This document shows, one piece after another, positions 4,134 through 57,488 of a DNA stretch of 64,000 nt. Origin of the DNA: a virus; the IMG/VR virus record IMGVR_UViG_3300005529_000003, positions 30,831 to 94,830 of that record; one strand, given 5' to 3'. A program made the translations under genes and the position numbers. The notes under the pieces were generated by a model. That model was not told where the DNA came from. It was given only the letters and a program-made list of their open reading frames with translations, and did no database searches. How positions within the stretch are numbered: the stretch's first letter is position 1; the number at the start of each line of letters is the position of its first letter.

Positions 4134-6986
4134 TCACGCGGAAATCAATTCTGCGACTTCTTTGACTTCCGCCTCCTGAGTAAGGCGGAACTGCTCGACG
4201 TGATCCCCTAGATCTTCCGGGCAGACCCAGTCTAGTTCGGGCTCGTGGTCCAGTGCCTTGCCGACTGTCTCGGTGCAGAGGGCTGAGGCGACGTACATCC
4301 TTTCCTTGATCGTTTCCAGCCGCTCCTTGCTTTCCATGAGGAAGTCTGCGAGTTCCAACGCGACTCCTTCGTTACGTCCGATGGCGTACTGGATGGCGAG
4401 CGGATCGATTTCCATGCCGTTCACCTTCGCGAGTACCTTTGCGTACGTCTGGCGAAGCAGTTCGAGCCCTGAGACTTTCGCCGTCTCTTCACGATCGACG
4501 TAGATGATCTTCTCGTGGTCGTTCTGGTTCTTCCTTGCTTTCTTCTTTCGTTGAGACGCTGGAATCATTCTTGCGTTCAGCGAGCGGTTCCGGCCGATCC
4601 ATTCCTTGAACCACTGGCCTCCTTGCTCGATCTGGCGGGCTACGTCGTCGATTGTCTCGACCTGGAGTAGCCTCTTGCGAATGATCGTTGCTGCCTCTGT
4701 CAGGAGTTTCTCTCCCTGAGCTTCGAGTCTCTCGGCCGTTCGCTCCAGGGCGGCTCGCAGCCTCTTCTGTCGGTCGATGTCCTCCTTCTTCCTGGGGTTT
4801 GCAGCCAGCATGTCCACTGCGTCAGCCGCGGAGTAGAGCGACTTGAACTCTGCCTCCTTCGCGATCGTGCAGAGCCTCGATGAATCGATCGGTTTCGTGT
4901 CGAGCCTCTCCAGTTCGTTGATCATCCTGATCAGGGTCCGCCAGGCGTTCTCTTCCGCCCGTCGTTCTGCCTTGAACTTCCACTTGCCGCAGCGACGTAG
5001 CGTTCTTGCCATGACGCCCTCGATCGTGTTCCTGAGCTTTGCCTCCTCTTCGAAGATGTCCTGGAGAACGTCCTTGAGGTACTCCGCGTTAGACTTCATG
5101 TCCTCCTGGACGTCTCTCGGTTGCTGGCGGTAGGTCGCCCGCATTGATTCGAGTTCCTTCTCGATCGTCTGTCGCTCGTTGTTCTTCTTGAGCAGCGAAG
5201 CCTCGTGCCATTCCATCGATCGTCGCTCTGACTCGACGTAGAACGTCTCTGGATCGAAGCTGAGAGGCGATGGAGGAATGTAGTCGAGTGGCTCCTCACT
5301 CGCCAGTTCGAATTCCTCCCTGTCGAATGGATCGTTCTCTAGCCAGTCCTGAGCGTTGTGCTGCTTCCTGCTCGACGCAAGCTCCTCCAGGCAGGCGTCG
5401 AGTTCTTCGTGAGTGCCGAAGATCCACTTTGACGGCGGATCGTCCTCGTCTGCTCGTTCTTGCTCTCGCGTCTTGACGACTTGTAGCCAGATCGGAATGC
5501 CACAGAGGCGTGAAGGCAGAAACTCCTGACCGGACTTCGATGTGACGAACTCGCAGACGTCGAGCTTGTGCTGGTGTCTCGACTTCATGTCCGTCCTGTT
5601 CTGACGCAGTTTCATCCACTGCGTCATCCACTCCCTGAATGCCCCGTACACCTTCATCTGGTGGACATACGGCTTGCCCGCTTCCGCGAGTGCTTCTGCC
5701 TCTTTCGATGTGGTGACGATGGGCAGTCTTGTGCCGTCGTCACGAACGTCGAGCATGTATCTCGACTTCCTTGTGTTGCCGTCCTTCTCGCCTGCTCCTG
5801 GGAAGAAGAACCCTTCCCCGAGCATGTCGTCGATCTTGTCGAGTGGGATGAAGCAGAGCGGGCTGTAGACCTTGACCTCTTGTTTCTCCTGCGTCTTCCT
5901 GTTTGCGACGTCGTACTGCGTCACGGCGAGTTCTACTTTTGTCGGGAACTCCACTAGGCCCTTGCCGTCGTTGAACACCAGCGGCGTGAGGCTCGGGCGA
6001 GCGTAGAGCGTCCGCTCGATGACCATCAGCTCCAGCTCCTCGATCGCCTTCCTTGTTGCTCGATTCACCTTGATTCCGTGGAGTGAAGCTCCGAAGTCCA
6101 TCACGAACTTGGATCGCCCCGGTCCTCCTGTCTTCGGGCGGTTCTTGATGTCCTCCATGATCGTGCCGACGCATATCTTCCTGGGCAGTCCCGGAGCGTA
6201 TCCCCACTTGCCACTGATCTCGTCCTGCTTCAGGTTCAGGAACGACAGGCAGGGCAGGAGAGAGTCTCGCTCGAATCCGTCTGGGTCGAAGACGTGATGC
6301 GACTTCGCCGTGCTGATCGTCTTCTGGGCGAGGTCGTTGAAGGTGTATACTGGCCGCTTGAAGCTCCATGCCGTGAAGCCGAGGGCCTTGAACTCCTCTC
6401 GCTCCTGGCGGACGAAGTTTCCTTCACGCGGCATCTTGCCAACGAGTTTGTCGTACACCTTGTATCCCTTCGACGGGACGACGACTGAGAACTCGATGCC
6501 CTTGTCGCAGATCTTCCTGACTCGAGAGAGGAACTGGCCTTTTGTCTTCTCACTGGCTGCCGCTGAGAGGACGATGATCGCGTACTCGTTACGCTCTGGA
6601 AGAGCGTTCCCCTTGATTGGCCGTCCGCTCTGTCTCGTTGACGAGGCAATCACACCGAGGATCTCCGCCTCGCTCCCTCCTTTCCAGAGCATGGCGTCCT
6701 CGATCTGCTCGATCTCGAAGCCGTAGGGGAGGATGCAGACCGCCGATCTCTCCTTCGTTCTTCTGGCGGGAAGTTCCTGCTCTCCTGAGATTTCTTGCTT
6801 CAGGGGAATGTCGTCGTGAGCGTTGCTGAAGGCTGCACTTTTCTTCTCTTCTTCGGGAAATACCTTGCGCCTGAGTTGTGCAGTCTTGTTCTCGTGTTCG
6901 CGTGTCCACGCTTGGAGGTACAGCGGCATCATCCTGGCGAGATGAGGGTCTTGACTGAGGATTTCCGAGCATGTAAGATGCTTCAT
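4134..6986 (-). CDS. large early protein of unknown function (950 aa)
   Basis: The largest early gene, with AGGAGAG before an ATG at 6986. Residues 1-80 are charged and look disordered. About 80-520 look globular and mixed alpha/beta (SAVCILPYGFEIEQIEDAML; YAIIVLSAAASEKTKGQF). From ~560 to 880 it is dominated by long Glu/Lys/Arg-rich helices with coiled-coil character. I see no Walker A, HNH, polymerase or nuclease signature. Its position beside ssb, and its size, would fit a takeover or replication-associated factor, but that is only a guess. It has its own terminator. Confidence 0.75.
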   Translation of the reverse strand: MKHLTCSEILSQDPHLARMMPLYLQAWTREHENKTAQLRRKVFPEEEKKSAAFSNAHDDIPLKQEISGEQELPARRTKERSAVCILPYGFEIEQIEDAMLWKGGSEAEILGVIASSTRQSGRPIKGNALPERNEYAIIVLSAAASEKTKGQFLSRVRKICDKGIEFSVVVPSKGYKVYDKLVGKMPREGNFVRQEREEFKALGFTAWSFKRPVYTFNDLAQKTISTAKSHHVFDPDGFERDSLLPCLSFLNLKQDEISGKWGYAPGLPRKICVGTIMEDIKNRPKTGGPGRSKFVMDFGASLHGIKVNRATRKAIEELELMVIERTLYARPSLTPLVFNDGKGLVEFPTKVELAVTQYDVANRKTQEKQEVKVYSPLCFIPLDKIDDMLGEGFFFPGAGEKDGNTRKSRYMLDVRDDGTRLPIVTTSKEAEALAEAGKPYVHQMKVYGAFREWMTQWMKLRQNRTDMKSRHQHKLDVCEFVTSKSGQEFLPSRLCGIPIWLQVVKTREQERADEDDPPSKWIFGTHEELDACLEELASSRKQHNAQDWLENDPFDREEFELASEEPLDYIPPSPLSFDPETFYVESERRSMEWHEASLLKKNNERQTIEKELESMRATYRQQPRDVQEDMKSNAEYLKDVLQDIFEEEAKLRNTIEGVMARTLRRCGKWKFKAERRAEENAWRTLIRMINELERLDTKPIDSSRLCTIAKEAEFKSLYSAADAVDMLAANPRKKEDIDRQKRLRAALERTAERLEAQGEKLLTEAATIIRKRLLQVETIDDVARQIEQGGQWFKEWIGRNRSLNARMIPASQRKKKARKNQNDHEKIIYVDREETAKVSGLELLRQTYAKVLAKVNGMEIDPLAIQYAIGRNEGVALELADFLMESKERLETIKERMYVASALCTETVGKALDHEPELDWVCPEDLGDHVEQFRLTQEAEVKEVAELISA

Positions 6987-7718: not shown

Positions 7719-8071
7719 CTCCCAAATGTCCTTGCTTCCTTTTACATCGGCGAAGCTAATTCCGCTCCTGGCTGGAGTAAGAGAGATATCGAAGACACGA
7801 TCCTCGACCCCCTTCCTACACTCAGGAGTACAGGGGAGACTTTTTTTCGAGGCGAGCGGCAGCGTATCGAGCGACTCCTTCTCGGATTGTTCATTCCGCT
7901 TGTGTTGTCTGTTTCCTAAAGTTTCCTTTCCCTCCTATCAAGAAGGAGAAGGAGACTTTTCTTACCGAACCACAACGCTTGAAAGACAACCCTTCAGAGT
8001 GATTTTACCGATCTGGAGGATTGCCGATCAAGTGTGTGCAATGTCGTGAGACGGTCTGTGCTGGCTTAGCA
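7719..8071. other. intergenic leader region
   Basis: No clear gene in 350 bases. It contains one dispersed hairpin (7918-7958: AAAGTTTCC...GGAGACTTT) and, 18 bases beyond, one copy of the minus-strand CTGAA(C/G)GGTTTGTC-type motif (7976-7999) that recurs before other leftward genes. Together these look like a promoter and 5' leader for the gene at 7128-7718. Confidence 0.4.
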
Positions 8072-8368
8072 CTAGAGGTAACAAACATAGACAGGCTTTT
8101 GCCCTGTGAGTTCGTTTGCGATTCTCACCGCGATCCGCCGCACTGCTAGCGCTCTGAGGGCACTTTCCCCTCCCATGTCGTCGATGTTGTCGTAGCTGTA
8201 CCGCCCGTCACTCCGCACGAGGTAGACACGACGAATCCATTCGCCCTTCATTGCCTCGATCGTCACTAGCCAGAAGTGCTTTCCCACGACTTCGACGACG
8301 ACATCGAAGTCGCCGTCTTGCCTGAAGTGCTCTTCTGTCTTGAGTTGCCAGCCCTGAGTTGAGATCAT
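8072..8368 (-). CDS. hypothetical protein (98 aa)
   Basis: Compact 98-residue product with beta-strand character in the middle (DFDVVVEVVGKHFWLVTIEA) and a C-terminal helix (ALRALAVRRIAVRIANEL). The ATG at 8368 is preceded only by a weak AAAGAG. No family recognised. Confidence 0.55.
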   Translation of the reverse strand: MISTQGWQLKTEEHFRQDGDFDVVVEVVGKHFWLVTIEAMKGEWIRRVYLVRSDGRYSYDNIDDMGGESALRALAVRRIAVRIANELTGQKPVYVCYL

Positions 8369-17369: not shown

Positions 17370-19970
17370 TTACCCGCCGATGTCCGACCCCTTCGGCGGT
17401 TTCGGCAGCGACTTCAGGTCGGGGAGTTCCTCCGGGAACCAGGGGTGGGTTTCGCCGACTTCCTCACGCAGGAACTGGGACGTCGATTGGCCCTGCTCGG
17501 TAAATCCAGGTTCGAGACGGGCTTCGCGGGACTCCTTCGCCGCCTCGCCGGCCCAGATCCTCGCCCGCTCCTCGATGGGTAGGTCTGAGTCCAGATAAGT
17601 TCCTTGCGAGGATTCTCTTTCGACCTCGAAGGCGATGTCCGCTGCCTCCTGTGCCGACATCCTCCGATCTCTCCTGCCAATTCTTTCTCCCCTAGCCTCT
17701 TCTCCTTCCTCGAACGACTCGAGGGCAGAACCCTCGTCCGCTGCGTTTTCTCCTTTACTCCGCCCTTTCGAGATCGTGTTTGTTTTTTCGAATTCGAAGC
17801 TGTCGAGCTTCGCATCGAGTTCCTCGATCAATTGGTTGCCGAGTTGCTGAGAGAGGGGAAGCTCATAATCCTGGATGTCGAACTCCTCTATCTCGTCGTC
17901 GAGGTAACGAATGAGGAGGCGGTGGATGTCTTCCCGCAGGAGGTCAGCTTCGTCCTTGATCGTCTCCAGATCGTGTGCTGCGACTCGGTCGGCCGTGATC
18001 TTCTCCAAACGGCGGCTGAGGTCTTCGTAAGCCCTCCACGGTCCCTGCCTCATCTCGTCCTGTTCCTTGAAGTGGGCTCGCCACCAGCCAGGAGATCCTG
18101 GTGTTTGACCTTCCTTAGCGGACCACTCCTTTTGCCCCATCGACCACCAGTCCTCGTTCCCCATCGACGGACGCCATTCAGGGTCGGTCCTAGCGTTCAA
18201 CGAATGCAGGCGGGCGAGTCGTTTCTGGAAGAGGGCCTTGGAGACTTTCTGGTCTGCGTGGTCTTTCCCCTGGTTCGACAGAATGTCTTGCTGCTTCTCA
18301 AGGAAGTTTTCGTCACGGTTGTCGTCAATGAATTCGATGAACTGGACGGACTCGAGGAGTTTCTGCTGACCTTCTGGCGACATCGACATGATTTGCTGGA
18401 CGGTCCACCGCTTCTTCATCGCCTCATGGTGTCGTGATTCTTCCTCTTCTTCCTTGATTTCCCTTTTATCGCGGTATTGCTCCGCGAAAGCCGCTGGCGA
18501 TTCCCGTTCCTTCTCCACGACTTGCTCGGCGAACTCGGGCGTACCCACCTTGACGATCTCACCCTTCGAGCCGAGGGCGACAGGCCCTTCTCCTCGTCTG
18601 CGATAGTCGTCTTCCGTCAACCTCTGCACCGTTGATGGGTGAGAGAGACTTTGGTATTCGCGATCGAATTCCGCTTCTCGTCGCCTTCCTGTCCCCGTCT
18701 TCAAGTATTCGTTGGCGTACTTGACCATGAACGAGTCGGGCTCGAAGGAGTCGTACTCGAACTCTGAGGGGGCTTTCGGCGTCGTCGCAGCCGCCTTGTT
18801 GATCGTGTGGATCTGGTCGCGGTAAACCTTGCGGATCTTTCCCTCGTCGGTGTAGACGAAGAACTCGTAAGGCTTCGTGTCCTTCGCCTTCTTGTACACA
18901 ACGAACCCGTGCATGACGACGTTCTTGCCTGTCTGTTCGTCCTTATCCTTGAGGACGATCTGGGCCTCGAGGGTGTTTTCCTCCTTCCGCTCCATGTGCC
19001 CGCGTTTAGCTAGCCAGATGATGTAGCCGGTCGGACACTCCTCGATCCGCTTGCCGAAGAACTTCCCCTTCGTCATGACGTAAACATCGCCAGGTGGTTT
19101 CCGGTAGGAGACGACCAGGGCGTACTCGAGTTGGGCCGAGAGCGTAAGGGCTTCGCCAGCGAGAGGGGCCTGGACTCGCTCTCTCCGCCCGATAGCCGCT
19201 TTCAGCTCCTGTGCCGCTTTTCCCAGGCGATCGAGGTTGTTGGCGTACCAGTTCAGGTCGCGTTCCTGTTCTCCCGCCTTGATGTCTCCCTTGTGAATTC
19301 CTTTCTTGAGTCTCGTGTAGGCGTCGATGACGTCCTGGTGGATCTCCGCCTGTGACTTCAGGGCTTCCGAAAGACCCTTCTCCTCGGCTTCCTTGATGAT
19401 TTCCTTGAGTCTGCCCGCGATGCCTGCACTCTCGGCATTCGTCCGGAAGCTAAAGCCAGTGGCGTATCCGCTGTCTTCCAGTGTGTCCACGAGTTTGAGC
19501 CGCTTCTCAACTTCCCTTACATCCTCCTTCGAGTCCACAAAGAGAACGGCATTCCCAGGAAGTCGTTTGACCGTCGTCAGGAGGAACCAGTAACGGTCCA
19601 CAACTTTTGCCAACTCCTTTTCTGCCGTCTGTTTCGCATTGATCTTGGCCTTCTCTGCCTGAAAACGAAGCTTCTCGACTGCGGCGATGTACTCATCTCT
19701 GGCCCGCTGCACCTTCATTTCCTTCGACTTATCGTTCGGGCTATTTCTGCTGATCTGAGCGAATTTCTCATAAGCTTTCCGTTCCCTGACCTTCAACTCG
19801 CCTTCAATGAATTCGACTTCCTTCTTCAGCTCCTTCTCCACTTTCCTGTTAAGGATTTCTGGAGCCAACTCGGACGGCGTCTTCTTGTTTAGTAACGGGT
19901 GAACGCTCGTAACGAGGACGTGGTTCCTGTTCTTTGCGTCGTATTTATCACGACCAACTTCAATTTTCAT
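17370..19970 (-). CDS. large charged protein of unknown function (866 aa)
   Basis: It lies between the lysogeny module and the portal gene, on the opposite strand, where a terminase gene would be expected. Residues ~40-130 form long Lys/Glu-rich helices. About 130-420 look globular and mixed (YWFLLTTVKRLPGNAVLFVD; LEYALVVSYRKPPGDVYVMT). The rest alternates acidic and basic disordered stretches and ends Pro-rich. I see no Walker motif and no nuclease triad, so it is not a terminase. It could be a lysogenic or defence-related gene, or a virion-associated protein. Confidence 0.65.
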   Translation of the reverse strand: MKIEVGRDKYDAKNRNHVLVTSVHPLLNKKTPSELAPEILNRKVEKELKKEVEFIEGELKVRERKAYEKFAQISRNSPNDKSKEMKVQRARDEYIAAVEKLRFQAEKAKINAKQTAEKELAKVVDRYWFLLTTVKRLPGNAVLFVDSKEDVREVEKRLKLVDTLEDSGYATGFSFRTNAESAGIAGRLKEIIKEAEEKGLSEALKSQAEIHQDVIDAYTRLKKGIHKGDIKAGEQERDLNWYANNLDRLGKAAQELKAAIGRRERVQAPLAGEALTLSAQLEYALVVSYRKPPGDVYVMTKGKFFGKRIEECPTGYIIWLAKRGHMERKEENTLEAQIVLKDKDEQTGKNVVMHGFVVYKKAKDTKPYEFFVYTDEGKIRKVYRDQIHTINKAAATTPKAPSEFEYDSFEPDSFMVKYANEYLKTGTGRRREAEFDREYQSLSHPSTVQRLTEDDYRRRGEGPVALGSKGEIVKVGTPEFAEQVVEKERESPAAFAEQYRDKREIKEEEEESRHHEAMKKRWTVQQIMSMSPEGQQKLLESVQFIEFIDDNRDENFLEKQQDILSNQGKDHADQKVSKALFQKRLARLHSLNARTDPEWRPSMGNEDWWSMGQKEWSAKEGQTPGSPGWWRAHFKEQDEMRQGPWRAYEDLSRRLEKITADRVAAHDLETIKDEADLLREDIHRLLIRYLDDEIEEFDIQDYELPLSQQLGNQLIEELDAKLDSFEFEKTNTISKGRSKGENAADEGSALESFEEGEEARGERIGRRDRRMSAQEAADIAFEVERESSQGTYLDSDLPIEERARIWAGEAAKESREARLEPGFTEQGQSTSQFLREEVGETHPWFPEELPDLKSLPKPPKGSDIGG

Positions 19971-46321: not shown

Positions 46322-46996
46322 TCAAGACCTCCAGCAAACACCACATTGTTCACACGTCGTCTTTGTCACGCCGTTCTCAGGCGGACATACGAGCGTCAGC
46401 CCGATCTTCTTCTGCACGACCCCACGCAGCTTCCTCACCCTGAACACCAACTCACTTCCTTCAGGCGGCAAGTCCTCCTGACTTGTCATCATCCATGCCA
46501 ACCTGACGCCTTCAGGAACTCGCCGTGGCGTTCCTGTCTCCTGGTCGCAAGAGAACCACGCTCTGACGTTCTTCAGACCGGCGATCTCCTTCAACACCTT
46601 CAAGATTTCACGAACTCTCCAACTTCTTGTGTAGAAGTAGAAGATCGTTTGTGGGCATGTCTTCATTACCTCGAGCCACTTCCTTGTGTAGAGAGAAGAA
46701 TAGAAGTCGCCCGCAGCGTGAATGCGAACAACTTCTATCTTCTTCGATTCGATGAAGTGAATCATTCGCTTCACGAAAGTCTTACGCCTGGAGAGGCGAA
46801 AGTTCTTCTCGTATTGCGACTTGATGTTCGGGCGGAAGGCTTCGAGGTGAGCGGAGTAACAAGCTTTCGAGCAGAGGTCGGAGCGGCCAGGACACGTCTT
46901 GCGAGACGGCAAACTGAACGACCAAATTCTCCTTCGTTTCTTCTTTGAACCGGGACGTCCTTTACTCCGGAGCTTTGAGTTCCCCGGCGTTAACAC
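46322..46996 (-). CDS. GP88-like phage protein
   Basis: 224 residues from a GTG at 46996 (GGAG 7 bases upstream), overlapping the previous gene by 35 bases. Landmarks of the phage gene-product-88 family: SLPSRKTCPGRSDLCSKACY, then R-x-x-I-x-x-x-Y-x-x-N, IHAAGDFYSSLYTRKWLEVM, and a C-terminal TTCEQCGVCW cluster. The Cys residues suggest a metal site. The biochemical function of the family is not known to me. Confidence 0.65.
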   Translation of the reverse strand: MLTPGNSKLRSKGRPGSKKKRRRIWSFSLPSRKTCPGRSDLCSKACYSAHLEAFRPNIKSQYEKNFRLSRRKTFVKRMIHFIESKKIEVVRIHAAGDFYSSLYTRKWLEVMKTCPQTIFYFYTRSWRVREILKVLKEIAGLKNVRAWFSCDQETGTPRRVPEGVRLAWMMTSQEDLPPEGSELVFRVRKLRGVVQKKIGLTLVCPPENGVTKTTCEQCGVCWRS

Positions 46997-47360
46997 TTGC
47001 GAACTCCTTGAAGCAATCAAGCTGGTTAAGGGCCTCGATGAACTCCTCGCCGTTCCATACTTGCTCTCCCCGACTGTCCATTCGGGCTCTTCGATCATGA
47101 AGATCCTGGATCTGTTCAAGATCCTTGATCGTCATGGATTGCGGAAGGATTTTCTTGATCAGCTCGTGGTCGAGGTCCCATACCGCAGAGCCTTCAAAGC
47201 TTTCGTGGTAGTCTTCGTCTTCGATCAAAATGCCGACAACACATTTCGTCTCATTCGGACCTCGGTATAAACACTGGCTATCAGGAGTTACTGATGGGAG
47301 GGTGCCGTCTATAGCCGCCTTCTTGAGCATCTCGTAGTATTCACGTTTCGTCACCGGCAT
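46962..47360 (-). CDS. hypothetical protein with Cys motif (132 aa)
   Basis: AAGGAG before the ATG. The middle carries CLYRGPNETKCVVGILIEDE, a pattern (C-x5-G...KC-x-V-G-x-L-I-x-D) that I have seen in unnamed phage proteins. The C-terminal part is helical (EFIEALNQLDCFKEFA). Overlaps on both sides show it is co-translated with its neighbours. Confidence 0.55.
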   Translation of the reverse strand: MPVTKREYYEMLKKAAIDGTLPSVTPDSQCLYRGPNETKCVVGILIEDEDYHESFEGSAVWDLDHELIKKILPQSMTIKDLEQIQDLHDRRARMDSRGEQVWNGEEFIEALNQLDCFKEFASVNAGELKAPE

Positions 47361-48107: not shown

Positions 48108-48580
48108 GCTTCCCTCCATTCGCCGTTCGTCCACCGCTCGTAAAGCAACACCTTGCAGTCGTGGATCTTCCACACCGCCGTCTCGTTGTTCGCGGACAGC
48201 ACCTTCACGAACGCCTTGTAAACAAGCTGATCTTCCTTGTTGTGCATGTCCGCCTTCTTGACAGCCTCCAGGGGCGTATTGGCGTAAGTGAAGAGGATCG
48301 TCACTCCGTCGTTTTTCGCCAACCTCACCTCATAAAGGAGTAGAGGAGACTTTTCTTCCACCTTCTTCTCTTCTGAACTCTTTCGAGGGTTAAGCGGATT
48401 GAGTTCGATCAACTTGTCGTGGTGGTCGCTCGAAATGGCAGGAAATGCGAGAATGTTGTACATTCCCCCGTAACGGTGCTGGAACGTCAAGGAGTTGTCC
48501 ACGCAGAACTTCAGGATCTCCATGACGTTCCACGGGTACACATACGCCTCCCAGCCGTACAGGATTCGGTGATCGCTCAC
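48104..48580 (-). CDS. hypothetical protein (158 aa)
   Basis: GTG start. Aromatic N-terminus (GWEAYVYPWNVMEILKFCVD) and a C-terminal half with YEVRLAKNDGVTILFTYANT. A copy of the dispersed GAAAAGTCTCCTCTACTCC word is embedded in the coding sequence at about 48325-48356. No family recognised. Confidence 0.5.
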   Translation of the reverse strand: MSDHRILYGWEAYVYPWNVMEILKFCVDNSLTFQHRYGGMYNILAFPAISSDHHDKLIELNPLNPRKSSEEKKVEEKSPLLLYEVRLAKNDGVTILFTYANTPLEAVKKADMHNKEDQLVYKAFVKVLSANNETAVWKIHDCKVLLYERWTNGEWREA

Positions 48581-48894
48581 GATTTTTTCTCTTCCTTCTT
48601 TTTCGGTTTGACGAGGGTCAAAAGCTTCTCTCGGAGTGAAGGCGAGCTGTAATGGCCGTTGTCTGCCGCCACTGCGATATCATACGCCTGACTTGCTGAT
48701 AGTCCCAGGCCCTCCCCCGCCCTCTTGTACGCCGTGAGGTCGAACACCGTGTTGTTCTTCAGGAAACACGCGGCGGTCAGCGGGCAGCAAAGTTTCCTCA
48801 CGCCCTTCACCGTGATGATGCACTGGATCATGCCCGCTTGACGGAGTTCCCACGGCAGATCCTTGACCGTTTCGACGATTTCGTCAACTGTCAT
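48577..48894 (-). CDS. CPLTA-family small protein 1
   Basis: 105 residues, AAGGAG before the ATG. Shared plan of the five-member family: an N-terminal M-x-V/L-D-E-I/A helix, Trp near residue 15, a central KLCCPLTAACFLK, an LGLSASQAYDIAVAADN helix and a C-terminal REKLLTLVK. The C-terminus adds a Lys/Glu tail. The conserved Cys and the CP(L/I)(T/S)A motif suggest a fixed structural turn or ligand site. Function unknown. Confidence 0.65.
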   Translation of the reverse strand: MTVDEIVETVKDLPWELRQAGMIQCIITVKGVRKLCCPLTAACFLKNNTVFDLTAYKRAGEGLGLSASQAYDIAVAADNGHYSSPSLREKLLTLVKPKKKEEKKS

Positions 48895-48908
48895 TTCGTT
48901 TCTCCTTA

Positions 48909-49229
48909 CTAAGGCTTGACGAGCGTCAGAAGTTTCTGGCGGATGTCGAGGTCTTGTTTCTTGTTTCCGTCGGCGGCAAGTACAATTTGTGTAGTCAATT
49001 CTTCCGGAATATCACTCACCTTCCCCGCCGTGTACGGGAAATGAGGCCCATACACTCTTCCAGTACGCAAAAAACAGAAGGCGGTGATTGGGCAGAAACA
49101 TTGCTCCTCGTCCACATTTGAGTGTTTGAGGAAGCAGCGAATCACACAATCCCCAACTTCACAATCCCCAACTTCTCCTATCTTCCAGGGCAGATCCTTG
49201 ATCACCTCGATGATTTCATCAACGTCCAT
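48909..49229 (-). CDS. CPLTA-family small protein 2
   Basis: 106 residues. Same plan: MDVDEIIEVIKDLPW, CFCPITAFCFLRTG, IVLAADG and IRQKLLTLVKP. It is closest to family member 1, from which it is separated by 14 bases, so this is a recent tandem copy. There are extra Cys residues in the N-terminal half (GDCEVGDCVIRCF). Confidence 0.65.
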   Translation of the reverse strand: MDVDEIIEVIKDLPWKIGEVGDCEVGDCVIRCFLKHSNVDEEQCFCPITAFCFLRTGRVYGPHFPYTAGKVSDIPEELTTQIVLAADGNKKQDLDIRQKLLTLVKP

Positions 49230-49259
49230 TATTTTCTCTTTCGTGTCAGAAGTTAAATG

Positions 49260-50339
49260 TCAGAGGTTTGGACTGTAACGCGAGGCCGCACTGCGAGCGA
49301 TCTGGCATAACTCCTCTTCCTCGAGTGGCGGCTCGCAACGAGTGTTCATGTTCTTGAGAGCGGCTCGAATTTCGTTCTCCGCTGCACCGAACCGCCTGAG
49401 AGCCGACGCCGCCCTGAACAATGTTCGATTCCTCAGCCCCTCGTGGATGACGATCCCCCCGTCCATCGCCATCGACACACCTTCTACGCTGCTCGCATGA
49501 GACGGCAACGGTAGTGGCTTCCACGGCTGAAAAGTCGTGAGAGCTTTCTGATTCAACTGCCAGGTATACTTCTTCCCCTTGCAATGGAGAGACGGAGGCA
49601 TGACGGAGATGCGACCTTCTGACAGCAACTCGACCTGGCCCTCGGAGAACTTCAAGCACGAGTTCGCAGGCGGCTTCATGTCGTCAGGGAGGAAGTAGAC
49701 GAGCCTTTGCCCCCGATGCGTATCGAATGTGAGAGTATCGGAGAGATCGAGCCACGCCAACTCTTCAAGGGCCTTCTCTGTTGGCCCATCGATATCGACG
49801 CTGACGAGGTTCGACACCTTGCCCATGACGACGCCGACGTTCGCGGACGGGTGCCTGCGGAACTGGTCCTCGAGTTCCTGCTCAGTGGGAGGTCGTTGCT
49901 GCCACAAGCGCCAGCGGCAGTCTACTGGCACTTTACCGAACTTGTCGGGGCGACGGCAAACCTTCCTGTGCTCTGCCCCCACGCCGTAATGATCTCGCGG
50001 GCAAAGCGCGACGACGGACCATCCCAGGCGGAGGTAATGGAGTGCCGCCTTGAAGCGGGGGTTTTTTCTGAAGTCATCCGCGTACGTCTCGTCTTGGCAC
50101 TCTTCCTTGACGGCCTGTTCGAATTTGTTTTCGTCACTGATGGTCGCGTTCTCGTACACCTCATTCTCCTGAGTCTCTCTTTCGACAACATTCACGGACC
50201 ACGAATTGATAAGGAACTGGGCCAACTCGTTTCCTCTCTCGTCGAGGAGACGATCTCTTAACAGATGCAGCTTCTTTACTGACAGAGTAGGCCCTTTGTC
50301 GATGTACTTCTCCTCATTGCTGTAGAACTGGATCTTCAC
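49260..50339 (-). CDS. prim-pol type DNA primase
   Basis: 359 residues, GTG start. Residues ~95-285 are a bifunctional primase/polymerase domain: ALHYLRLGWSVVALCPRDH, GKVPVDCRWRLWQQRPPTEQ, PSANVGVVMG and LVSVDID, with the acidic pair that binds metal. Residues ~300-355 are a PriCT-1-like helical domain (GLRNRTLFRAASALRRFGAA...CEPPLEEEELCQIARSA). It probably primes phage DNA synthesis. It has no fused helicase, so the helicase must be encoded outside the window or taken from the host. Confidence 0.88.
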   Translation of the reverse strand: MKIQFYSNEEKYIDKGPTLSVKKLHLLRDRLLDERGNELAQFLINSWSVNVVERETQENEVYENATISDENKFEQAVKEECQDETYADDFRKNPRFKAALHYLRLGWSVVALCPRDHYGVGAEHRKVCRRPDKFGKVPVDCRWRLWQQRPPTEQELEDQFRRHPSANVGVVMGKVSNLVSVDIDGPTEKALEELAWLDLSDTLTFDTHRGQRLVYFLPDDMKPPANSCLKFSEGQVELLSEGRISVMPPSLHCKGKKYTWQLNQKALTTFQPWKPLPLPSHASSVEGVSMAMDGGIVIHEGLRNRTLFRAASALRRFGAAENEIRAALKNMNTRCEPPLEEEELCQIARSAASRYSPNL

Positions 50340-50393
50340 GACTCTCTTGCACTCGGTCTAGATACGGGGGTGAATTCGACAGTGACTTCGATA

Positions 50394-50648
50394 TTACTTA
50401 CAATCACAACTCATGACAAAGCCCGCATTCTTCTTCCACTGCGGGCGTATCTCCTGCTTGCAGAACATGCAGCGTACGCTGTGCGTGTACTCGTGGACGG
50501 GGAGAGGGCCTTCCAGCTCGTCCACCGTGACGCATTTAGGGGTGTTCTTTGTGTTTTCTTTTTCGATGCGGTCGGCGGCTTCCTGCTTTCTATCTCTGCG
50601 GGGTTTTCGCCTTGTTCTCAACCTTAGAATGATGGGGGATGCGGTCAT
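50394..50648 (-). CDS. basic protein with C-terminal zinc ribbon (84 aa)
   Basis: The start chosen is the ATG at 50648 in a TAATG overlap, with GGAG upstream. Very basic N-terminus (LRLRTRRKPRRDRKQEAADR), then a C-terminal CMFCKQEIRP...MSCDCK zinc ribbon. The combination suggests nucleic-acid binding. Confidence 0.6.
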   Translation of the reverse strand: MTASPIILRLRTRRKPRRDRKQEAADRIEKENTKNTPKCVTVDELEGPLPVHEYTHSVRCMFCKQEIRPQWKKNAGFVMSCDCK

Positions 50649-50992
50649 TATAAGTGGCTCTCCATTGTCTTTGTAATATTCAGCCTGTTCTTTTCGATCC
50701 ACTGTTGTTCAAAGTCTAATGCAGCGAGTCGATTTACATAAGGCCCGACTACAGGTCCTCCAAGTGGCCTCAAATCAACAAACCATTTATCTTTCTCGAT
50801 GAGTTTTTCGTTGTAGTAAGGATGATCTTTGATCCACATATTTTGTGCGTCCATACTTAAACAAGACCACGGCTCGACGTGCGAAGCTCTCTTTACTTCA
50901 CACTCTCCTGAATGCTCGATCTTCAAGTTATCCGTGGTGATGTGCATCACGACACCATTTTCATCGATCTTCACGATGATCTTCGTTTGCAT
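50648..50992 (-). CDS. hypothetical protein (114 aa)
   Basis: The start chosen is the ATG at 50992 (GGAG 7 bases upstream); an upstream ATG would lie inside the 13-bp hairpin at 51009-51044. Beta-rich N-terminus (TKIIVKIDENGVVMHITTDN), then a Trp/Tyr-rich helical part. No family recognised. Confidence 0.55.
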   Translation of the reverse strand: MQTKIIVKIDENGVVMHITTDNLKIEHSGECEVKRASHVEPWSCLSMDAQNMWIKDHPYYNEKLIEKDKWFVDLRPLGGPVVGPYVNRLAALDFEQQWIEKNRLNITKTMESHL

Positions 50993-51008
50993 TTCATTCT
51001 CCGTAAAT

Positions 51009-51044
51009 GAAACAACGTACGCCACTAAAGACGTACGTTGTTTC
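51009..51044. repeat. perfect 13-bp inverted repeat
   Basis: GAAACAACGTACG / CGTACGTTGTTTC around a 10-nt loop, in the gap between two minus-strand genes. It has a TTTGTT tail on the plus strand only. It may be a leader hairpin controlling the start at 50992 or a weak terminator. Confidence 0.75.
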
Positions 51045-51066
51045 TTTGTTCATTGTTTGTCACACT

Positions 51067-51333
51067 TCATTCCACTATTTCTTCTTCCTCCTTGATGAAC
51101 GTGAGTACTTCCTCTTCAGTCCAACCATCCTTGTTTTCTCCTGGCGTCACATAAAGTAACCAGCACTCATCGTCATCGTCGAGAAGGTAAAGCCCGCAGT
51201 TGTATTTCCCATTTGATCGAGGTCCCTCGACTATGATCTTCCAGTAAGGCGTAAGCTCTTTCTCGAATGACTGTGGAAGTCCTACCCTTCGAGCAAATCC
51301 TTTCGCCTTCAAGTTCTCCACGAACACGTTCAT
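51067..51333 (-). CDS. hypothetical acidic protein (88 aa)
   Basis: The ATG overlaps the stop of the preceding gene by one base. Mixed alpha/beta: WKIIVEGPRSNGKYNCGLYL, LDDDDECWLLYVTPGENKDG, then an acidic helix EEEVLTFIKEEEE. No family recognised. Confidence 0.55.
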   Translation of the reverse strand: MNVFVENLKAKGFARRVGLPQSFEKELTPYWKIIVEGPRSNGKYNCGLYLLDDDDECWLLYVTPGENKDGWTEEEVLTFIKEEEEIVE

Positions 51334-52322
51334 CAGAGTTCAACCTCGTTGAGCTTGCCTGCAACGTCGCTCGAGAACTGGCGGCGAGGCAATGTCGTCA
51401 CCATCTTGTCGAGTGACTCCTTGAGCTTGTTCATGCCGTCCTTGACCTGGCTCTTGATCCAGTCCACGTTCTTCACCTCGTTCACGGAGATGGGAATACG
51501 ACCCGTACTGGTGTTTACAGTGAGGATCTCCTGAGCCTGGTTAACAAGCCCTTCGAGTTCAGCGTTCGACCCGCAATAGAGGTTCTTGAACCGCTGGACA
51601 AAGGCGTTGACGTTCTCGAGCGAAGCCTGCTTGAAGACCTTCCGCTCGCCCTCTTCTCCAGGCTCCAGGCGTTCAGAGAGGTGCGACACGAGTTCGTGGA
51701 ACGTCTCTACGAACACCTGTTCACCGAGAGATGCCGCCTCGTCAAACCGCTGGCGGACTCGCTCGGCCTGCTCCCGATATAGATCAGGGTTAACGCCCTG
51801 GAGCCACTCAGGCGGCTCGAGCGATGGGTAATCGACAGTGAACCCATATTTCTCCACGATCGACACAGGGTAGTCGGCATCGTTGTAGAGGTCGCCCAAC
51901 TCCTGCCTCGCCTCCGCCTTGACGTCGCTGAGGTGGGCCTGGAGGTCCTCTACGGCAGTTGTCAACTCCGCTCGAATCGAGTTGACGAAGTCTGTCCACA
52001 AAGGAAGGGCGGAGGTCTTGAGAAGGCGAACGCCGTCCTCGATCCACTCGTCCGTCCTCTCCTGCCACTCCTGCCGCAATCTCGACAGGATCTTGCTGAC
52101 GGCGGCAATGTACTGGTTGTCGCTGTTAGCAAGCTTCTTGCCACCTGTCATCCGCTTCGACTGAGCGCCGAACGCATTCGCTGCCGTCTTCCTCTGATCC
52201 TTGGACAGCGACTTCGACAGACCCCAGCGATTGATGACGAGCTTGCAACCCATTCGCGTTCTGCGAAGTCGTTCACCAGGAGTCAGCAAACTGATATCTT
52301 GATTCGTTTGTTCTTCGGACAT
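51333..52322 (-). CDS. DUF3150-like helical protein (329 aa)
   Basis: AAAGGAG before the ATG. Almost entirely helical: a long N-terminal half (SKILSRLRQEWQERTDEWIE; FVNSIRAELTTAVEDLQAHL), DADYPVSIVEKYGFTVDY, and a C-terminal helical bundle (SLENVNAFVQRFKNLYCGSN). This order resembles DUF3150, a family found near AAA ATPases in phages and plasmids. An AAA ATPase indeed lies three genes upstream. The assignment is tentative. Confidence 0.5.
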   Translation of the reverse strand: MSEEQTNQDISLLTPGERLRRTRMGCKLVINRWGLSKSLSKDQRKTAANAFGAQSKRMTGGKKLANSDNQYIAAVSKILSRLRQEWQERTDEWIEDGVRLLKTSALPLWTDFVNSIRAELTTAVEDLQAHLSDVKAEARQELGDLYNDADYPVSIVEKYGFTVDYPSLEPPEWLQGVNPDLYREQAERVRQRFDEAASLGEQVFVETFHELVSHLSERLEPGEEGERKVFKQASLENVNAFVQRFKNLYCGSNAELEGLVNQAQEILTVNTSTGRIPISVNEVKNVDWIKSQVKDGMNKLKESLDKMVTTLPRRQFSSDVAGKLNEVEL

Positions 52323-52366
52323 TGAGTTCTCTCCTTTAGTCTTTAGTCGTTAGTCGTTAAATGAAA

Positions 52367-52399
52367 ATCTCCACCGCCTCATCATGAAGGGGTGGAGAC
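52367..52399. repeat. dispersed GAAAAGTCTCC hairpin
   Basis: Stem AGTCTCCACC / GGTGGAGATT. Minus strand begins AAGAAAAGTCTCCACCCC. It lies 45 bases upstream of the 51333-52322 gene and is a well-formed copy of the dispersed family. Confidence 0.6.
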
Positions 52400-52427
52400 T
52401 TTTCTTACTTCCAGTTGTTCACGATGA

Positions 52428-52769
52428 TCAGTTCACGAGAGCAAGAAGGCGATCTCGAATCCTGATCACCTCATGATCGACGGAAAGACTTTCTTGTTCT
52501 CGATTGTAAACATTGTCCGAAGCCTGAACGATCTTAACCGCATCGTCAATCTTGAGGTTAAGCCTTTCGGCCATCGCTCTCACTTGATGGATTGTAAATA
52601 CAATCTGCGTCTTCTTGTATGCCAGGGCACTAAGAGGACAGTGAGTACAAGTCCAGGCGAATGCGGGATGTTGACCGTGCGAGCGAATGCACTTCTGAGA
52701 GTTGTCGATCGTCCACGGGAACTCATCCTTGAGCTTGAGGATCTCGTCCACCGCCTCGTCGAGCGTCAT
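52428..52769 (-). CDS. CPLTA-family small protein 3
   Basis: 113 residues. Family plan: MTLDEAVDEILKLKDEFPWT, CTHCPLSALAYKKTQ, a helix LNLKIDDAVKIVQASDN, and IRIRDRLLALVN. It overlaps the next member by four bases (ATGA), so members 3-5 form one translationally coupled array after the AAA ATPase. Confidence 0.65.
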   Translation of the reverse strand: MTLDEAVDEILKLKDEFPWTIDNSQKCIRSHGQHPAFAWTCTHCPLSALAYKKTQIVFTIHQVRAMAERLNLKIDDAVKIVQASDNVYNREQESLSVDHEVIRIRDRLLALVN

Positions 52770-53107
52770 TCATCTCTCTCCTTCTTCGTGAGCGTGAGGA
52801 GCTTCTGGCGGACGATCGCTCTAGGAGAGTCCGGCTCGTTTGTGTTCCGCCTGTCCGCCGCATCGGCGATGATCTCGGCATCTTTTTCCGCAATCCCCAG
52901 CTCCTCTGCTGCTAGTGCGTAATCTCCGCTCCAGTATGCCTTCCCTGTCCGTTTCAAGCAAAGTGCGGTGAGCGGGCACAGTCGATTTGCTTCTCCTTTT
53001 CCTAATTCCTCTCTCCACCACCGCAACCAGCCGTCGCTGTCGTCGATCGTCCAGTTTTCGTCCCTCGTCTCTTCCAGAATCGCGTTCACTGCTTCGTCAA
53101 GTGTCAT
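52766..53107 (-). CDS. CPLTA-family small protein 4
   Basis: 113 residues. MTLDEAVNAILEETRDENWT, RLCPLTALCLKRTGKAYW, ELGIAEKDAEIIADAAD, RQKLLTLTKKERDE. The first eight residues (MTLDEAV plus one) are nearly identical to member 3. It starts one base after member 5 ends. Confidence 0.65.
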   Translation of the reverse strand: MTLDEAVNAILEETRDENWTIDDSDGWLRWWREELGKGEANRLCPLTALCLKRTGKAYWSGDYALAAEELGIAEKDAEIIADAADRRNTNEPDSPRAIVRQKLLTLTKKERDE

Positions 53108-53108
53108 G

Positions 53109-53450
53109 TCATTCTCCGTAGTGTTTTGGGTGAAGCCCTTCTAGAAACCGCCGACGAATCTCTGTTGCCACTGGTGATGCTCCGTGGCAGCAGTCTGCCG
53201 CACGGATGATCGTATCGATGTCCCTGAAGCCAATTTCCAGTATTGTTCCCGCTTTTCGAAAATCGACCGCTGGCAGCAATTTACTTGTCCTTTTGAATAC
53301 GAGTGCCGTCAGTGGACACATCGTGCAAGTCGGTAGAGTACTATTACTCTCCTCGTAACGACTTGCACGAAGCGTCCCCAGAGGGTTCAACCTCCAGTCC
53401 ATGTCCTTCGTCTCCTCGATCACAGCAGTCATGAACTCCTCGAGCGTCAC
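53109..53450 (-). CDS. CPLTA-family small protein 5
   Basis: 113 residues from a GTG at 53450 that overlaps the AAA ATPase stop as GTGA; the longer upstream frame is antisense-like and rejected. Plan: VTLEEFMTAVIEETKDMDWR, CTMCPLTALVFKRTS, ILEIGFRDIDTIIRAAD, IRRRFLEGL. It is the most divergent C-terminus of the five. Confidence 0.65.
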   Translation of the reverse strand: MTLEEFMTAVIEETKDMDWRLNPLGTLRASRYEESNSTLPTCTMCPLTALVFKRTSKLLPAVDFRKAGTILEIGFRDIDTIIRAADCCHGASPVATEIRRRFLEGLHPKHYGE

Positions 53451-54958
53451 AGTTCTGTTCCTTTCTCTGTCTTGAGCGCGTCCAGCCGTCTCTGAATTGA
53501 AGAGGACGGTAGCGGTTTGTTGTAGTAGATTCCCGGCGACGACGCTGAAAGTGCCCACCCCGACGCGAACTCCTTTATCTGGCGGATGGCTTCTGGTGCT
53601 CTCCTGACGTTCACCGGCACTCGTTCCACAGCTTCACCGAACGAGTACCCCATCTCACTGACGAGGTAACAAAGTTGTTCCACCTCCGCTCCTGTCCATC
53701 CTTCAAGATCTCCACACGCCTTGTTGACCGCGGCGACGGAGTCCACGAGCCCCGCCTTCTTCAGGTGGTATTCGAGGATCGAGTCGCGTTCTTCTTTCGT
53801 TGGGAGGTCGAGGAAGAACGTGGCGTCAAAGCGGCCAGGGCGAAGGAACTCGTACGGAATGGAAGCGACGTTGTTTGCCGTGGCGATCAGGTAGACGTCG
53901 GCCGTCGTCTCCTGTCGCCACGTTAAGAGCGTGCCGAAGATCCTCGCCATAACTCCAGAGTCATTGGACGAGCTGCTGCCGGCAAGGTCCTTCTCGATCT
54001 CCTCCAGGCGGACCACGACAGGTGCGAGGGCCTCGAGTTGGTCGAGGACGAGGCGGAGGTTCGCCTCGCTCTGCCCAACGAGCGACCCGAGCAAGGAGCC
54101 AATCCTCAACAGGACTGTGTTCCGACCCACTTCATTCCCCAGAGCAGAAGAGAAGAGACTTTTCCCTGCCCCGGACGCTCCTACGAGACAGATCCCCTTC
54201 GCCGGCTTCTTCCTCTCAGGGCGGAAAGCCCGCAACGTGAAGTCTTTGAGGTGGGCGAGCCCCTTGACGTCCGCGAACGTCAGTGAGGAGCGCTCCATCT
54301 TCAAGAAGCCGCCCTTCTCCAGCACCTTTGCCTTCGAGTGCCAGAGGGCTTTCGGCGTCACGGGCTCGTCCCTCGCCAGACAAAGGGCCAGTTCCTGCTC
54401 GGCCTCGAAGCGCATAAGTCCCGACAACGCTTCGAGTGTCGCCTTCTGAAGTGGAGAGCCTTCTTCTCGACCGAGCGTGCGGTTGACTAGCTTCTGGATC
54501 TCCTCGTGCCCTGGAGGCTCATGGCGGAGGACAGCGATGTACGTCTGGAGTTCGTCGGGGATGTTCACGAACGGCGACAGGATGATGAAGTACGCCCCGA
54601 CGCTCTTGCCGACAGCGATCGCGTTCAAGAGCGATTGCTTGAGGTCGGGGATCTTGATAAAGTCGTGGAGGTTATGAAGGGCGATTGCGTACTTCTTCTG
54701 CGACTCCGCCGCCTCGCCGATCTTCTGGAAGACGCTCTTGATGGCATTTCCTGGAGCCATCTTGCTCCCCTCAACCGTGGGACCATCGTCATTGACTTCA
54801 CGCAGGCCGACGTCAGCATCCCAGGAGAGAAGCTGAACGTCGTGAGCAGTACACACTCGCCGCATGACTCGCTGTGTCTCGGGCGGCTCTCGTGTTTGTA
54901 CCCACATCCCCGCCGCTCCTGCCTTCAAGTGCTGTGCGAACGATTCCTCGAACTTCAT
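53447..54958 (-). CDS. Ycf46-like AAA+ ATPase
   Basis: 503 residues. The N-terminal domain (1-200) starts MWVQTREPPETQRVMRRVC...LLSWDADVGL, the layout of Ycf46-type ATPases. The AAA core follows at ~225-440: Walker A GASGAGKS (260-267), Walker B VVVRLEEIE (Glu-Glu 319-320 instead of Asp-Glu), sensor 1 ATANN, and arginine finger RPGRFD. It is probably a ring-forming remodeller. Context: five helical or small genes overlap around it, including a DUF2997-like gene, as near Ycf46 in cyanobacteria (recollection). Confidence 0.85.
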   Translation of the reverse strand: MKFEESFAQHLKAGAAGMWVQTREPPETQRVMRRVCTAHDVQLLSWDADVGLREVNDDGPTVEGSKMAPGNAIKSVFQKIGEAAESQKKYAIALHNLHDFIKIPDLKQSLLNAIAVGKSVGAYFIILSPFVNIPDELQTYIAVLRHEPPGHEEIQKLVNRTLGREEGSPLQKATLEALSGLMRFEAEQELALCLARDEPVTPKALWHSKAKVLEKGGFLKMERSSLTFADVKGLAHLKDFTLRAFRPERKKPAKGICLVGASGAGKSLFSSALGNEVGRNTVLLRIGSLLGSLVGQSEANLRLVLDQLEALAPVVVRLEEIEKDLAGSSSSNDSGVMARIFGTLLTWRQETTADVYLIATANNVASIPYEFLRPGRFDATFFLDLPTKEERDSILEYHLKKAGLVDSVAAVNKACGDLEGWTGAEVEQLCYLVSEMGYSFGEAVERVPVNVRRAPEAIRQIKEFASGWALSASSPGIYYNKPLPSSSIQRRLDALKTEKGTEL

Positions 54959-56831: not shown

Positions 56832-57230
56832 TCAGTAAGCGGCCAACTCCAAAACAACCTCCTGGCCCTCTTCCTGCGTAGAGAGAAGCGTGAGTCCCTG
56901 CTCCTCCGCACTCACGAGGACGCTTTGCTTGGCGTACTCCCGCAAGAACTTCTTCAGCTCACTGACCTTCCCCCAGTGACCGTCCTGCACCTGGCGGATG
57001 TCGTTCACTGTCGGTGGGTTCTCGGAGTAGTTGTCAAACGTCAGCGTGCCGTCCGCGTTGAAGCAGACGGGGTAAAGCCAGTTAGGCAACTTGACCCACA
57101 TGCCATTCATCGTCCGGCTTGCGTACCCCCTGACCTCACCGACGCCGTGAACAAGACCCAACGCCTTGCAAGCCCGCTCGAACACCCTCTCGGAACGCAC
57201 CTGCGTCTTGACAGTGCTGATGTGAGACAC
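56832..57230 (-). CDS. hypothetical protein (132 aa)
   Basis: The GTG at 57230 (VSHISTVKTQVRSERVFERA) is chosen because GGAGG lies 8 bases upstream. The longer ATG frame would read through a terminator hairpin. The product has an SRTMNGMWVKLPNWLYPVCF beta region and a helical C-terminus (KVSELKKFLREYAKQSVLVS). No family recognised. Confidence 0.6.
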   Translation of the reverse strand: MSHISTVKTQVRSERVFERACKALGLVHGVGEVRGYASRTMNGMWVKLPNWLYPVCFNADGTLTFDNYSENPPTVNDIRQVQDGHWGKVSELKKFLREYAKQSVLVSAEEQGLTLLSTQEEGQEVVLELAAY

Positions 57231-57264
57231 TATTCGATCCTCCGTCTGTTTGTGTGTAAAAAGA

Positions 57265-57303
57265 AAAGTCTCCTCCACCTCATCAAGAAGCGGAAGAGAC
57301 TTT
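57265..57303 (-). terminator. rho-independent terminator, member of the hairpin family
   Basis: Stem AAAGTCTCTTCCGC... / ...GGAGGAGACTTT. On the minus strand it is followed by TCTTTTTAC. It is the dispersed hairpin in the opposite orientation from most copies, here placed to end transcription from the tRNA-like region. Confidence 0.7.
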
Positions 57304-57488
57304 AAGAGAAGAAATGGCCTGGTGACTTTTCCCTCAAGCTCTAGGCTCGAGAAGGGGCACCGCCGAAGCTGATCATTCAACCGGAGTCACGGTGTAAGCT
57401 GCTGGCACTTCGTTGGAAGTCAGAAGCCTTGCCACTCGTTTGAGTCAGGCCATTGTGCTTTAAAGAGATGAGATCGGTCGATCGGAGT

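Follow-up and report, generated by a model that had tools for sequence, protein, structure and literature searches.

The window analyzed here, 64,000 nucleotides of the 94,830-base viral record IMGVR_UViG_3300005529_000003, comes from an uncultivated phage known from metagenome sequence alone. Since portal and capsid proteins and an integrase are encoded, the phage is, judging from its genes, a temperate tailed phage. Five small genes lie in two clusters, as a first-pass annotation had noted: copies 3 to 5 come after a gene for an AAA ATPase, and copies 2 and 1 after a gene for a Prim-Pol primase. The whole record holds five copies, the same count as the window. The features are as follows (E-values of the five copies are from a profile without window rows):

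53447..54958, minus strand: AAA ATPase (PF00004, E 2.2e-19; phrog_8638, E 1.5e-71)
53109..53450, minus strand: family copy 5, 113 aa (E 1.3e-15)
52766..53107, minus strand: family copy 4, 113 aa (E 5.8e-19), modeled with AlphaFold
52428..52769, minus strand: family copy 3, 113 aa (E 1.5e-12)
52368..52402, minus strand: hairpin after copy 3 (fold -22.6 kcal/mol, z -2.8)
49260..50339, minus strand: Prim-Pol/PriCT primase (PF09250, E 7.3e-24; PF08708, E 6.4e-11), upstream of copies 2 and 1
48909..49229, minus strand: family copy 2, 106 aa (E 2.5e-14)
48577..48894, minus strand: family copy 1, 105 aa (E 9.5e-18)

All five proteins begin with M..(D/E)E and an early W, carry CP(L/I)(T/S)A and A(A/S)D, and end in R..LL/FL. 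Eleven columns are invariant in the five-way alignment, where identity to copy 1 is 29-39%, and in 5/5 copies the same number of residues separates CP and the conserved D. The motif plan drawn up in the first-pass annotation therefore stands, apart from its C-terminal IR, which in copy 1 is IQ. Searched as a DNA pattern, the motif pair matched four times in the window and not once in 100 shuffles. In the alignment, 8 extra residues are inserted in the loop of the hairpin of copy 2. Copy 5 starts with GTG at 53450, and its open frame extends upstream to 53558.

The AAA ATPase gene leads a run that continues through copies 5, 4 and 3, and the proposed translational coupling is borne out by the junctions: the AAA stop and the start of copy 5 overlap in GTGA, copies 5 and 4 meet in TGACATG with a 1-nt gap, and copies 4 and 3 overlap in ATGA. 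The hairpin at 52368..52402 is the probable end of this unit, whose final gene, copy 3, is also the lowest-scoring of the five. A like hairpin, of the type AAAGTCTC...TTGATGAGG/CATGATGAGG...GGAGA, stands on the minus strand at 57269-57303 (2 found, as against 0.25 expected), and the two are probably shared terminators or processing sites. In the other cluster, gaps of 30 and 14 nt separate the Prim-Pol gene from copy 2 and copy 2 from copy 1, which overlaps the following ORF in GTGA.

Several other genes deserve mention. The first gene past the hairpin after copy 3 (51333-52322) encodes a 329-aa protein with no family match above cut-off, and a GP88-family protein (46322-47119; PF17338, E 3.8e-41) belongs to the same gene run. 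Upstream of the AAA ATPase gene, 56832-57380 encodes a protein weakly similar to DUF1257 (E 0.008, under the cut-off); DUF1257 genes and Ycf46-like ATPases co-occur in other genomes. Elsewhere in the window, large ORFs of 950 and 866 aa (4134-6986 and 17370-19970) have no PHROGs match.

A homologous family absent from the libraries searched

A profile was built from outside relatives alone, with zero window sequences. Run against all window ORFs, it retrieved exactly the five copies, on the minus strand and 105-113 aa long as annotated (E 5.8e-19 to 1.5e-12; next ORF 0.26), and with both motifs masked it retrieved the same five (E 3e-13 to 6e-6; next 0.31). Profile homology extends over the whole length in 5/5 cases, and on this evidence the five genes are firmly placed in one homologous family of phage proteins. 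Degenerate-pattern scans of IMG/VR, with confirmation by profile, brought up members in another 20 non-redundant records of uncultivated viruses; the source contigs are viral and come from many metagenome samples. The pattern matches in L011/L013/L019, L030, L035, L048, L051, L055, L056 and L089 were set aside as chance.

The annotators knew of no named family with this pattern, and the libraries agree: Pfam, NCBIfam, PHROGs and PADLOC hold zero models for the 28 members, none of their models matching more than one member (best E 0.0057). Searching 50,697 phage records by tblastn, with five different members as queries, gave no convincing match (one at E 0.3, to a DNA polymerase, was taken as chance), and one query against 72,556 plasmids gave none; single-sequence tblastn overlooks distant relatives, so absence from the phage and plasmid records is unproven. 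There was no match in the genomes of one phylum, searched in two draws (200 and 398) without a positive control. Queries with the AAA ATPase and the primase brought up no close relatives of the window phage, and a literature search for the family motif brought up nothing. Identity with a known family is thus ruled out by the four libraries, searched with all 28 members, together with tblastn of the isolate phages. By these comparisons the family is firmly new to Pfam, NCBIfam, PHROGs and PADLOC.

Two candidates for kinship were considered and rejected. A phrog_17693-type protein encoded at 46962-47360 (KCVVGILI...IQDLHD) is, like the family, small, has a Cys-led stretch and a late Asp, and lies in the same gene run, but profile comparison with this Cys-helix protein gave a probability of 1.5% over 12 columns. 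The top PDB-sequence profile match, the SaPI capsid morphogenesis protein CpmB (6b23), covers 51 columns over the LGL...AAD helices at E 0.5, which is chance level, and it did not appear in the fold search.

Predicted fold and conserved residues

AlphaFold models were compared for two members, copy 4 (pLDDT 91.7, pTM 0.85) and the outside member L034 (pLDDT 87.6), the latter from an alignment without window rows. The element order, H-E-E-H-H-H-H, is the same in both: a helix, a beta hairpin, a helix opening at CP(L/I)TA, and three more helices, with the AAD end and an Arg conserved. The two alignments were not identical but had outside rows in common, so the models are only partly independent. 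The family is confidently predicted to have a single compact fold, rather than the unrelated folds that would have told against the annotation. Foldseek found nothing under E 0.6 for the copy 4 model in BFVD and PDB, and nothing under 1.9 for the L034 model in BFVD. Since Foldseek performs poorly on small helical proteins and the sets compared were BFVD and PDB, a new fold is a possibility rather than a result.

Column identity averages about 25% over the 28 aligned rows; all of them have C, P, A, D and R, and 27/28 retain R29. Such conservation, with nucleotide-metabolism genes nearby, might suggest a small enzyme or a nucleotide- or phosphate-binding protein, in which the Cys that opens the CPxTA helix would work together with the conserved Arg and Asp. 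Indeed, an active site would account equally well for C, D and R being so strictly conserved. However, C, P, A and D were required by the search patterns, and ascertainment is therefore part of the reason why they are invariant (they are also kept in rows that were recovered solely because a fetched locus held an additional copy). The family has no conserved His or second Cys, the Thr of CPxTA is substituted in the L068 copies, and no fold was matched in PDB or BFVD. All told, an enzyme seems distinctly unlikely. Strong conservation extends to residues that the patterns did not contain: R100, R29, the early W, F6, L10 and G26.

Gene neighborhoods

In most readable loci the adjoining genes are those of replication, recombination and nucleotide metabolism. 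Outside the window, the neighbors include RecT, DNA polymerase A, DHFR, dCMP deaminase, a PDDEXK nuclease and metallophosphoesterases, as well as an SNF2 helicase, a terminase and a weakly matched SSB. It appears from these sequences that the family resides in early-type modules of DNA metabolism, early expression being what one would expect from the replication-module context. Eleven neighboring window proteins, on the other hand, have 0 relatives in 24 loci with other family members. The coupling to the AAA ATPase is thus local, and the special tie to the AAA ATPase and primase that the first-pass annotation suggested does not hold for the family: neither protein recurs in the 24 loci, and the partnership fails as a family-wide rule.

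The setting invites the thought that the family assists in replicating or recombining phage DNA as an accessory factor, perhaps an adaptor or a partner of single strands or helicase, acting with the phage's own proteins. Three window copies overlapping or abutting behind an AAA ATPase gene would suit such a role, as would the genes adjoining the family elsewhere. However, no single partner recurs among the eleven; a core factor poorly explains five diverged copies, and related phages differ in whether they have the gene and have swapped it (see below). A replication accessory is for these reasons unlikely, while deserving to be kept in mind.

One may also consider regulators, superinfection-exclusion factors or antitoxin-like factors kept in temperate phages. 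The window phage has an integrase, and small helical proteins are often regulators. But the integrase, at 14.6 kb, is far from the family genes, which lie in the replication module, and no member matches a helix-turn-helix or antitoxin family in Pfam, NCBIfam, PHROGs or PADLOC. Of the alternatives, this one seems very unlikely.

Copy number, gene exchange and possible role

Most relatives carry a single copy. A first count found one each in 18/18 other viral records (near-duplicate contigs counted), and among records added later four have one copy, G222 has two and G223 three; many records are fragments, so a single copy is a minimum. The window's five copies are the maximum seen, and the amplification within one genome that the annotation perceived is thereby upheld. 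A tree groups copies by phage, with support of 84/91 for the window, 93/75 for L068 and 90/93 for L062, while the outside row L016 falls within the window's group and long branches leave the details uncertain. Since the copies cluster by phage, the simplest reading of the sequences is that expansion of the family took place independently in three or more lineages of phages.

Exchange can be followed in a group of related records (L054, L058, L061 and L062). Copy a of L062 (5005-5355) is 78-82% identical to its relatives, as against 51-68% for most flanking genes (L062 3822-7584), and its dS to these relatives is 0.25-0.33, where most neighboring genes have 0.8-1.9. By blastn, an 86.5% block is flanked by 73% upstream and 73-81% downstream. 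The low dS relative to the neighbors points to a gene-sized recombination block, swapped between diverged phages. The L062 gene for a site-specific recombinase is likewise closer than average (dS 0.5). Copy b (7987-8334) is an extra copy amid conserved flanks; the distance between these is 771 bp in L062, against 279 bp in L061, a difference of about 490 bp. Presence/absence and swapping, as read from this group, mark the gene as accessory. Many phage accessory genes undergo duplication and swapping.

In the same group, invariant columns number 2/20 in the hairpin tip and 75/111 elsewhere (p 1.5e-6), and the tip has indels. As a signal of recognition this hypervariability is suggestive only, because a clamp-like neighboring protein has an equally variable stretch. 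The family gene has dN/dS of 0.41-0.89, compared with 0.07-0.43 for most neighbors; the clamp-like neighbor, at 0.31-0.43, is fairly similar to the family, and one small neighbor reaches 0.89. No positive selection was seen, dN/dS being below 1 everywhere in the genes compared.

A binder directed at the host would be expected to behave in this way: its scaffold is kept while the tip changes, and the gene, carried in early-type modules, is duplicated and exchanged. We tentatively favor, as the best explanation, a family of small binding proteins directed at the host, serving takeover or counter-defense, with changing targets. Family proteins would be made along with the products of the early replication genes; their conserved core would provide the scaffold, and the tip of the hairpin with the adjacent loops would form the recognition surface, copies within one phage hitting different or allelic host targets. 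Early expression, a host target and recognition through the tip are steps that we infer. Counter-defense is a plausible role from the sequences, and anti-defense genes of phages are often duplicated and exchanged between phages; no anti-defense neighbors of the family were found in the loci examined. The earlier suggestion of variable partners fits the lineage-specific duplication, the gene recombination and the hypervariable tip, while no target for its counter-defense example was identified. Going further, a previously unseen small fold may serve as the recognition scaffold, its rewritten tip and multiplied copies making an array of inhibitors against several host defenses; we regard that version as rather speculative and on the unlikely side.

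The closest precedent in behavior, by analogy, may be AcrID1, an anti-CRISPR of rudiviruses, for which 26/35 homologs are found in four viruses (PMC11065993) and different or allelic host targets have been suggested for the duplicated genes. In both cases small viral proteins, early or presumed so, are strongly amplified in few genomes. AcrID1, however, belongs to archaeal viruses and has a known target, whereas the present family belongs to phages and its host target is putative. There is no sign of homology between them, the comparison being that the family has no PDB sequence or fold match at all.

The family adds to phage proteins one that is missing from the libraries searched and whose predicted fold is unmatched in two structure sets. 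Because it has expanded repeatedly within single lineages and its genes have been swapped, it is a good candidate source of new anti-defense or takeover proteins, and the five natural paralogs allow a direct side-by-side test. As to hosts, a protein encoded beside the L016 member (1964-2968), with no Pfam match, resembles by eye the repeat-companion type of protein that Gemmata-like planctomycetes commonly have, a possible host clue.
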